In this document: positions 13,006-24,695 of the stretch, piece after piece
How positions within the stretch are numbered: position 1 is the stretch's first letter
Layout: every line of letters begins with the position of its first letter
DNA from: Alphaproteobacteria bacterium
GTDB taxonomy: Bacteria > Pseudomonadota > Alphaproteobacteria > Micropepsales > Micropepsaceae
Assembly (NCBI GenBank): GCA_020852655.1
Contig: JADZAI010000076.1
Coordinates: forward strand, 52,663-116,662
Reading direction: 5' to 3'
DNA: 64,000 bases
Translations under genes and position numbers: made by a program
The notes under the pieces: model-generated
Told to the model about the DNA's origin: nothing
Seen by the model: only the letters and a program-made list of their open reading frames with translations
Database searches by the model: none

Positions 13006-13053
13006 CGCGTGGTTCGAGGCTCGGTGGCATGCGCCGCCGGGCACCTCACCATC
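13006..13053 (-). repeat. REP-like hairpin unit (family A, copy R0)
   Basis: GCGTGGTTCGAGGCTC-GGTGGC ATGC GCCGCC-GGGCACCTCACCAT; same outer boxes as the units at 22.6-23.4 kb. Confidence 0.75.
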
Positions 13054-13083
13054 ACACCTTGCGTGAAATCCAAACCTATTTGC

Positions 13084-13134
13084 CATCCTGAGGGGCGCGG
13101 TCGCGTCCAGCGACCGGGCCTCGAAGGACGCACC
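13084..13134 (+). repeat. REP-like hairpin unit (family B)
   Basis: CCATCCTGAGGGGCG-CGGTCGC gtcca GCGACCG-GGCCTCGAAGGACGCACC; perfect 7-bp inner stem. Confidence 0.65.
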
Positions 13135-22602: not shown

Positions 22603-22628
22603 CTCACCGTGTTGTCATCACGATTGGT

Positions 22629-22717
22629 ATGGTGAGGTGCGACCCCGGATTTGATCTGACTTGATCCGGGGGAGCCTCGAACCACGCACGATGTCGCAGC
22701 CTCTTGCTCACGATGTG
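22629..22717 (+). repeat. Hairpin unit R1 (family A) plus linker
   Basis: ATGGTGAGGTGCGA-CCCCGGA..15-nt loop..TCCGGGG-GAGCCTCGAACCACGCACGATGTCGCAGCCTCTTGCTCACGATGTG. Confidence 0.85.
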
Positions 22718-22731
22718 CGCACCATCTTGCC

Positions 22732-22795
22732 ATGGTGAGGTTGCGACCCCGGACTTGATCCGGGGGAGCCTCGAACCACGCACGCTGTTGCAGCC
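22732..22795 (+). repeat. Hairpin unit R2 (family A)
   Basis: ATGGTGAGGTTGCGA-CCCCGGA ctTGA TCCGGGG-GAGCCTCGAACCACGCACGCTGTTGCAG. Confidence 0.85.
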
Positions 22796-22853
22796 GGTCC
22801 AAGGCAGAGGCAACAACCTTGACCTGGCCCCGGAACACCCCATCCCTTACGCG

Positions 22854-23171
22854 ATGATCAACGGCGCCTGGGTCCATATTCTGCTCTGTGCAGACGGCAG
22901 CTACTATGTAGGCTCGACCACCCAGGATCCGGACGTGCGCACCGGCCAGCACAACGACGGCACGTTTGGCGGCTACACGTCGGCGCGGCGCCCCGTGAAG
23001 CTGATCTTCCAGGAAGATTTCCCGGACATCGTCCAGGCAAAGGCCTTTGAATATCAGGTCAAGCGATGGTCGCGCGCTAAGAAGGAGGCTCTGATCCGTC
23101 GCGACTGGGATGTCTTGCAGGCGCTGTCCAGGCGACGGGCCGGGAAGTCCCGTCCGACACAGGCAAGCTGA
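22854..23171 (+). CDS. GIY-YIG nuclease family protein
   Basis: WVHILLCADGSYYVGSTTQDPDVRTGQHNDGTFGGYTSARRPVKLIFQEDFPDIVQAKAFEYQVKRWSRAKKEALIRRDWDVLQALS. Confidence 0.88.
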   Translation: MINGAWVHILLCADGSYYVGSTTQDPDVRTGQHNDGTFGGYTSARRPVKLIFQEDFPDIVQAKAFEYQVKRWSRAKKEALIRRDWDVLQALSRRRAGKSRPTQAS

Positions 23172-23190
23172 CCACCCCCCCTATCTTGCC

Positions 23191-23270
23191 ATGGTGAGGT
23201 GCGACCCCGGACTTGATCCGGGGGAGCCTCGAACCACGCACGATGTCGCAGCCTCTTGCTCACGACGTGT
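23191..23270 (+). repeat. Hairpin unit R3 (family A) plus linker
   Basis: Near-identical to R1/R2: ATGGTGAGGTGCGACCCCGGACTTGATCCGGGGGAGCCTCGAACCACGCACGATGTCGCAGCCTCTTGCTCACGA. Confidence 0.85.
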
Positions 23271-23308
23271 TGTCGTATCCTGCCCACGATGTGTTGCACC
23301 ATCTTGCC

Positions 23309-23366
23309 ATGGTGAGGTGCGTGGTCGCGAAAGCGACCGCGCCTCGAACCACGCACGCTGTTGCAG
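23309..23366 (+). repeat. Hairpin unit R4 (family A boxes, different inner stem)
   Basis: ATGGTGAGGTGCGT-GGTCGC gaaa GCGACC-GCGCCTCGAACCACGCACGCTGTTGCAG. Confidence 0.85.
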
Positions 23367-23370
23367 GATT

Positions 23371-23412
23371 GCGTGGTTCGAGGCTCGCCTTCGGCTCGCA
23401 CCTCACCATACC
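23371..23412 (-). repeat. Hairpin unit R5 (family A, inverted, different inner sequence)
   Basis: GCGTGGTTCGAGGCTCGCCTTCGGCTCGCACCTCACCATACC; outer boxes inverted relative to R1-R4. Confidence 0.8.
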
Positions 23413-23435
23413 AGGAAGCGGAGAGGATCCAGGCG

Positions 23436-24695
23436 CTAGATCCCCACCGCCGCCGGCCTCTTGATCATCATCGAAATCACCGCCGCGACGACACCCGCGC
23501 TGCCCGCCAGCACGAAGGCCTCCAGATAGCCGCCGAACTCGGTGTGCAGCAGCCCCGCGCCGATCGCCGCCGTCGCCGCGCCCGCCTGGTGGCCCACCGC
23601 GATCCAGCCGAACACCACCGGCCCGTCGCGATCGCCGAACGCCTCGTTCGCCAGCCGCACCGTCGGCGGCACCGTGGCGATCCAGTCGAGCCCGTAGAAC
23701 ACCGCGAAGACGTTCAACGACACCAGCGAGAAATCCGAGAACGGCAGGTAGATCAACGAGAGCCCGCGCAACGCGTAATAGGCGAACAGCAGCTTGCGCG
23801 GATCGGCGCGGTCGGTCAGCCAGCCCGATGCCGTCGTCCCGACAAGATCGAACACGCCCATCAGGGCGAGCAGCCCGCTCGCCTGGAATTCGGTGAGGCC
23901 GCGCTCGGAACACAGCGCGATCATATGCGTGCCGACGAGCCCGTTGGTCGTGACGCCGCAGACGAAGAAGCCGCCGAAGAGCAGCCAGAAGGTGCGGCTG
24001 CGCGAAGCACGCGCCAAGGCCCCGAAGGCGTGACCCAGCGCACCCGAGCCCGAGACCCGCGGCGGCGGCACATAATCCTCGTCTGCGCCATAGGGCCACT
24101 GCCCGATCGCCTCAGGTGAATCCGGCACCAGCAGCCACACCGCCGGCGCCAGCAGCAGCGTCACGCCGGAGATCGACAGCACCACCGTCTGCCAGCCGAA
24201 GGCGTTCGCCGCATAGGCCATCAGCGGCAGGAACAGCAGCGTCCCCGTCGCGGTGCTCGCTGTGAGGAGGCCGAGCATCAGCCCGCGATTCCGCACGAAC
24301 CAGCGGTTTACCACCGTCGCGCCCAGCACCGGGGCCACCGCGCCGCTGCCTATCCCTGAGAGCACGCCCCAGGTCGCGACATAGTGCCAGGGCGCCGACA
24401 TCAGCGAACTCAGCGCCGTCGCCCCGCTCATCAGCAGGAAGGCGAGGCTCACCGTGCGCCTCACGCCGAACGACTGCATCAGCGCCGCCGCGAACGGCCC
24501 GGTCAGCCCGTAGAGGAAGATGCCGATGCCCGCCGCCGCCGAGATCGCCGCGCGGTCCCAGCCGAAAGCGCGCTCCAGCGGCAGCATCAGCACGCCCGGC
24601 GCCGCCCGCAACCCCGCCGCCGTCAGCAGCGCCACGAAGATCGCGGCGGCGACCACGAACGCATAATTCTGGCCGAACGGCCGGGTCGCACGCAT
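23436..24695 (-). CDS. MFS transporter
   Basis: Start MRATRPFGQNYAFVVAAAIFVALL; repeated TM segments; NRWFVRNRGLMLGLLTASTATG. Confidence 0.9.
   Translation of the reverse strand: MRATRPFGQNYAFVVAAAIFVALLTAAGLRAAPGVLMLPLERAFGWDRAAISAAAGIGIFLYGLTGPFAAALMQSFGVRRTVSLAFLLMSGATALSSLMSAPWHYVATWGVLSGIGSGAVAPVLGATVVNRWFVRNRGLMLGLLTASTATGTLLFLPLMAYAANAFGWQTVVLSISGVTLLLAPAVWLLVPDSPEAIGQWPYGADEDYVPPPRVSGSGALGHAFGALARASRSRTFWLLFGGFFVCGVTTNGLVGTHMIALCSERGLTEFQASGLLALMGVFDLVGTTASGWLTDRADPRKLLFAYYALRGLSLIYLPFSDFSLVSLNVFAVFYGLDWIATVPPTVRLANEAFGDRDGPVVFGWIAVGHQAGAATAAIGAGLLHTEFGGYLEAFVLAGSAGVVAAVISMMIKRPAAVGI

Follow-up and report, generated by a model that had tools for sequence, protein, structure and literature searches.

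GIY-YIG nuclease genes embedded in REP arrays as putative enzymatic partners of two REP superfamilies

A 787-bp block located at positions 22626–23412 of the window (the whole 64,000-nucleotide stretch of DNA analysed here) contains a single gene, encoding a 105-aa GIY-YIG nuclease, that is preceded by two REP-like hairpins and followed by three. The system to which it belongs is wider in scope than the first-pass annotation of this DNA had supposed, comprising a two-clade family of nucleases and two REP superfamilies and reaching beyond Alphaproteobacteria. We conclude from comparisons of sequences that two REP superfamilies, both with a C[G/C]TC tag, have these nucleases as their putative enzymatic partners, cleavage and mobilization of the REPs being the predicted activities of the nucleases. 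The block itself is probably a nuclease-bearing REP element, i.e. a GIY-YIG gene residing in a REP array, with gene-less REP singlets and dimers found elsewhere, and its nuclease would act on the REPs and spread them.

The block starts with GGTATGGTGAGGTGCGA at 22626, and the exact reverse complement of this sequence closes it at 23412, as the first-pass annotation had described. In a repeat search, the inverted arms extended to 21 nt (22625–22645 and 23393–23413) with 95% complementarity. All five hairpin units named there were found in the reported order, with R1 and R2 located 5' of the gene, R3 and R4 located 3' of it, and the inverted R5 in the last position. REP R1 (22626–22688, plus strand; hairpin unit, 22630–22684) forms the left end of the block and comprises the tag GGTA, an outer stem (TGG/CCA), a TGAG ... 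TCGAA core, and a long inner hairpin. REP R2 (22728–22782, plus strand; unit, 22733–22778) carries the tag TTGCCA and is followed 72 bp downstream by the start codon of the nuclease gene (22854–23171, plus strand). REP R3 (23187–23240, plus strand; unit, 23192–23236), also tagged with TTGCCA, begins 15–20 bp past the stop codon. REPs R4 (23305–23355, plus strand; unit, 23310–23351) and R5 (23370–23412, minus strand; unit, 23374–23408) together form an inverted dimer, in which R4 is the left half; R5, the right half, is GGTA-tagged and forms the right end of the block. R1–R2 and R3–R4, previously described as direct repeats with common linkers, do share unit and linker sequence (60 nt at 98% and 23 nt at 100%), but the R3–R4 linker is ∼25 bases longer than the R1–R2 linker. 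Elsewhere in the window, at 13010–13128, REPs of the superfamily to which the block REPs belong form a further dimer that stands alone; it combines two REP subtypes, one TGG/CCA unit and one TCC/GGA unit.

As single-stranded DNA, R1–R4 are predicted to adopt the same two-stem fold, folding better than 190–199 of 200 shuffled sequences, and the R4–R5 dimer is highly stable in the shuffle test (z = −8.4); the fold of R5 alone was not significant against shuffles (z = −0.3). When the window genome (G000; 115 contigs) was searched with the block sequence, 43 matches were obtained, and ∼40 related REP copies are dispersed in this genome, mostly as singlets and inverted dimers. Because of these dispersed copies, and because the R1–R4 and R4–R5 folds are better than those of shuffled sequences, the hairpins are not attributable to chance. 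Ordinary terminators, CRISPRs, and IS ends were also dismissed as explanations of the block, all of them fitting it poorly. The GGTA-tagged tip GGTATGGTGAGG occurs exactly twice in the 3.95-Mb genome, i.e. at the two ends of the block; the tags of R2–R4 and nearly all other listed REPs of the genome end in GCC(A) and are usually TTGCCA. The 17-bp terminal inverted repeats of the first-pass annotation are real as sequences but not as separate transposon-type ends, being formed by the outermost parts of R1 and R5. The block is REP-bounded and is not a classical TIR transposon.

The gene assignment was corroborated by Pfam, in which the sole match of the 105-aa ORF was to GIY-YIG (PF01541; E = 7e-15). 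In a tree of 217 proteins, three clades were identified, namely A (including the window gene), B, and C (UPF0213/YhbQ type). The solved structures nearest by sequence are the UPF0213 proteins 1zg2 and 1ywl, which belong to the same single-domain fold family. Among the 217 relatives, Y8, Y18, G20, R29, H33, and E66 (window numbering) are near-invariant in all three clades. The window protein retains Y18, G20, R29, H33, and E66, and with them the GIY-YIG catalytic set (Y, Y, R, H, and E) except for the first Tyr, in place of which it has His8; nearly all of the relatives have Tyr at this position, and one other clade A protein differs. R.Eco29kI and I-TevI both lost their activity when the first GIY tyrosine was replaced by Ala (PMC1952068). 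Because His replaces this nearly invariant catalytic residue, the window copy of the nuclease is probably catalytically weakened and may be inactive.

In total, four Pfam GIY-YIG genes were identified in the window genome. The paralogue on contig C104, which shares 81% amino acid sequence identity with the window protein, retains Tyr8 and has two A-REPs of the strict motif (see below) within 300 bp and more by looser matching. A third gene (contig C9) belongs to clade B and is accompanied by a CGTC-type REP and by no A-type REP, whereas the two A genes of this genome are accompanied by A-REPs and by no CGTC REP. Elsewhere, the reading frames of three clade A genes (L038, L039, and L041) continue into the downstream REP, which encodes a C-terminal tail (RHPEV..., as in RHPEVRVQRASKDD). 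A nuclease of intermediate similarity (L174, G273:C67:58158–58427) is found in a genome having its own REP forms, CCTGAGTAGCCCCGG...GGGGCGTATCGAAGG and CCTGAGCGAAGTCGAAGG, and possibly represents a further nuclease/REP subclade.

The linkage of nuclease genes to REPs was analysed across genomes using motif A, which consists of three outer bases, TGAG, 3–80 bases, TCGAA, and the complement of the outer bases. This motif was derived from ∼10 clade A loci and then tested on 80 further loci picked by protein similarity alone. It was present within 400 bp of the gene in 78 of these 80 loci (on both sides in 54), and its density was ∼5/kb in the 250 bp upstream of the gene vs. 0.1–0.3/kb farther out. 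The loci tested include those of Actinobacteria (Janibacter and Gryllotalpicola), a Dehalococcoidia bin, and Thiobacillus. A relaxed motif ([TC]GAG...[TA]CGA[AG] with two outer pairs) was too permissive, matching 185 of 489 controls, and the strict form was used. For clade B, the motif was the CGTC-tagged REP of the literature (Di Nocera et al. 2013; PMC3733652). Strict A-REPs were found within 300 bp of 113 of the 126 non-identical clade A genes, 2 of the 86 clade B genes, and none of the 14 clade C genes, as compared with 32 of 750 random windows, whereas CGTC-REPs were found within the same distance of 47/86 clade B, 10/126 clade A, and 1/14 clade C genes and in 57/750 random windows. In a tag-free test, in which any perfect 8-bp hairpin was accepted, the corresponding numbers were 63/80 for clade B, 2/14 for clade C, and 216/740 for random windows. 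Clade C genes, unlike those of clades A and B, are thus not REP-associated. Because the loci are related by descent, Fisher p-values for these counts overstate independence and serve as indications only. The strict motif was missing at 13 of the 126 clade A and 39 of the 86 clade B genes; many of the clade A misses have variant REPs (e.g. CGAG...TCGAG), and a few are without any recognized REP. The enrichment of GIY-YIG genes beside such repeats, which the first-pass annotation had proposed to look for across genomes, is strong.

The same association is seen at the level of whole genomes. Among 289 alphaproteobacterial genomes, for which the pattern counts were copied over by hand from tables, at least 10 matches to the common A-REP pattern were found in 21 of the 29 genomes with a clade A gene vs. 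23 of the 260 without (p = 1e-13). At least 15 CGTC pattern matches were found in 32 of 93 genomes with a non-A relative (mostly clade B) vs. 13 of 167 with none. No clade B gene was found in genomes G264 and G271, with 143 and 125 CGTC-type pattern matches, respectively, and no clade A gene was found in G130, with 87 A-type pattern matches; the REPs of such genomes are either persisting orphans or are served by a different enzyme. The CGTC-REP hosts named in PMC3733652 (N. aromaticivorans, A. lipoferum, and Neisseria) possess clade B genes that are flanked on either side by CGTC REPs. The clade B gene of Aeromonas also has CGTC REPs on both sides, and that of Photobacterium is followed by an array downstream. 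One entry of the plasmid collection, a 2.17-Mb Neisseria gonorrhoeae ‘plasmid’ (L281, NZ_CP119142.1), resembles by its length a chromosome deposited as a plasmid. A clade B gene without CGTC REPs (L294, Planktothrix agardhii p1, 1498–1782) is located between the gene for MmeI, which is a restriction enzyme of type IIL, and drmA, which encodes the DISARM helicase.

Clade A REPs are composed of a tag, an outer stem, a T/A pair, a GA...TC stem, and an inner hairpin, with a 2-nt GA bulge predicted to separate the two stems on the 3' side. When TGAG...TCGAA cores were collected without demanding outer pairing, the three outer pairs were complementary in 348 of 507 cores near the genes vs. 64 of 239 far from them, and 14 different outer triplet pairs were found among the complementary cores, indicating that the sequence of the outer stem varies while its pairing is kept. 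The 5' tag logo of A-REPs is C-[C/G]-T-C-A (77/59+25/88/94/80%). It coincides with the tag of CGTC REPs (CGTC/CCTC), REPs of both kinds beginning with C[G/C]TC. Near clade B genes, 101 REPs were identified by a search that itself required a [CT]GTC tag and a 7-bp perfect stem; their stems start with A (88%) and T (83%), and their tails read C (91%), C (66%), and A (68%), in accordance with the published CGTC form. They agree with the CGTC-tagged REPs described by Di Nocera et al., which include dRS3 of Neisseria and RPE-4 and RPE-6 of Rickettsia (PMC3733652), in the [CT]GTC tag, the AT-starting stem, the CCA tail, and the species in which they occur. The window REPs, with two stems split by the GA bulge, are unlike the simple CGTC REPs (8–9 bp stem and 4–5 nt loop). 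What they have in common with the CGTC superfamily is the tag class only, at the superfamily level, the window units themselves using TTGCCA or GGTA. For the nearest REPs on both sides of a gene, the arrangement with the tags outward is the commonest in both clades (A, 42/73; B, 14/26), and the median distances are about 22–28 bp before the start codon and 12–17 bp after the stop codon.

The REP subtype tracks nuclease phylogeny, and this also holds for paralogues within a single genome. When the A-REPs were sorted by inner class (short, GAG, GTGC, and other), 34 class changes were counted on the clade A tree, which has few columns and many weak forks, vs. 61 after shuffling, and none of 200 shuffles gave as low a number. 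In Bradyrhizobium sp. 132, two loci on contigs of record set NZ_JADPKY belong to different classes, L082 to GAG and L107 to GTGC. The outer pair was common to the upstream and downstream REPs in 60 of 70 loci.

The nuclease gene and its REPs are located between genes that are otherwise adjacent. In a complete genome of the same genus (G002), the two genes that flank the block have orthologues (69 and 83% amino acid sequence identity) that abut, and the window contains ∼834 bp of extra DNA (22603–23436) at this junction. A clade B counterpart was found in A. lipoferum 4B, in which the gene, with CGTC REPs on both sides, is located between sufB and sufC; in the five other Azospirillum replicons inspected, a short, unrelated spacer lies between sufB and sufC, and the clade B block is absent. 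The presence/absence polymorphism that had been suggested as a check on the block is thus seen in both clades, although the absent sites were compared between species and gain is therefore not separable from loss. In Bradyrhizobium, the nuclease gene L108, whose product is 95% identical to that of L083, is located at a different site. No recent duplicate of a nuclease gene was seen within a genome; paralogues in one genome are ∼68–78% identical in DNA, which suggests that the nuclease gene itself moves rarely, and they are too old for the ends of the element to be obtained by comparing them. In the search for strain-level empty sites, just four plasmid members with recognizable clade A identity were found, and no phage match covered 80% of the query.

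In the mechanism that we propose, the nuclease would recognize its own REP as an extruded or single-stranded hairpin, on the lagging strand or in a cruciform, and would cut at or near the C[G/C]TC tag. DNA cleavage by GIY-YIG enzymes is hydrolytic and proceeds without a covalent strand-transfer intermediate; for this reason, the break or the released hairpin or dimer is suggested to be copied to new places by host repair. The gene-bearing block would represent the source, or autonomous form, and the short dimers its non-autonomous derivatives, a relationship like that of RAYTs to REPs and REPINs. The C104 paralogue, with its Tyr8, could act on the REPs of the window copy. We give an even chance to the more specific proposal that the two sister GIY-YIG clades are the missing mobilizing enzymes of the CGTC-type and TGAG/TCGAA REPs, which would then be spread by a hydrolytic hairpin nuclease and host repair with no transposase.

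It is also conceivable, but unlikely, that the nuclease serves the host by trimming or resolving REP hairpins and cruciforms, without spreading REPs, and is kept beside its substrate by co-selection (domestication). Branched and cruciform DNA is cut by SLX1 and ANKLE1 (PMC7610144, PMC10287932, and PMC6902002), GIY-YIG relatives that have the small GIY-YIG domain in common with the present nucleases, for which a hairpin or cruciform substrate is plausible; the latter are, however, bacterial and REP-linked and are without the RING, LEM, and ankyrin parts. The conserved catalytic residues and the low copy number of the genes, located at conserved sites across species, are also consistent with such a role, which by itself leaves unexplained the matched REPs on both sides of the genes, the interruption of conserved operons by nuclease and REPs in single species, and the 95%-identical gene at a new site. 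Far less probable is a homing-type scenario, in which REPs are the target cleaved and invaded by a free-standing selfish GIY-YIG gene and the flanking REPs mark the insertion site. GIY-YIG homing enzymes without recognition of their own element exist (PMC1564403), and the flanks are usually REPs, but an insert of this kind would halve one target, whereas whole REPs, often several, are present on each side, and the REP subtype tracks the nuclease tree. I-TevI-type homing endonucleases share the catalytic domain and a selfish-element context with the present family, but 105 aa is too short for their DNA-binding C-terminal modules, and neither an intron nor an intein is involved. Least probable of all is that the REPs are locally duplicated transcription or mRNA-stability hairpins tuning nuclease expression, since, despite their close proximity to the start codon (median, ∼25 bp) and stop codon (∼12–16 bp), the same REPs are dispersed genome-wide in correlation with gene presence across genomes, and generic terminators are not expected to give a clade-specific REP type.

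The nuclease-bearing REP element favoured here is best compared with REP/RAYT systems (REPtron/REPIN; PMC2817692, PMC3116915, and PMC3733652), which combine GTAG-tagged REPs with an IS200/IS605-like tyrosine transposase. The first-pass annotation had proposed a partnership of this type with a GIY-YIG nuclease, and the linkage and the presence/absence pattern support this proposal. In both systems, short tagged palindromes occur as singlets and inverted dimers in mostly intergenic positions, one or a few enzyme genes are flanked by cognate REPs, the REP type follows the enzyme type, and the gene is rarely duplicated. The enzyme here is, however, a GIY-YIG nuclease and not an HUH/Y1 transposase, the tag is C[G/C]TC (C[CG]TCA in the A-REP logo; TTGCCA or GGTA in the window) and not GTAG, and in the REPs of clade A two variable stems are separated by a conserved GA bulge. 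The nuclease/REP system thus works like REP/RAYT yet is no member of it, both the enzyme and the tag being different. CGTC REPs were published without an associated gene and ‘apparently lack a dedicated transposase’ (PMC3733652), whereas a GIY-YIG partner is found here; the words nuclease and transposase are absent from the text of a 2025 REP survey (PMC12306157). No report of a GIY-YIG/REP association was found in open-access full texts, the scope of the literature search, and an earlier report in preprints or subscription papers is possible.

With two independent REP superfamilies each linked to a nuclease branch of its own, these repeats would be supplied with an enzyme. If this is true, the origin of these REPs becomes testable in the laboratory, many ‘GIY-YIG nuclease family proteins’ now without a role would acquire one, and REP-type dispersal can rest on a nuclease unrelated to transposases. 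For a large class of bacterial repeats, the nucleases described here are probably the partners so far missing, by which the repeats are spread or processed.
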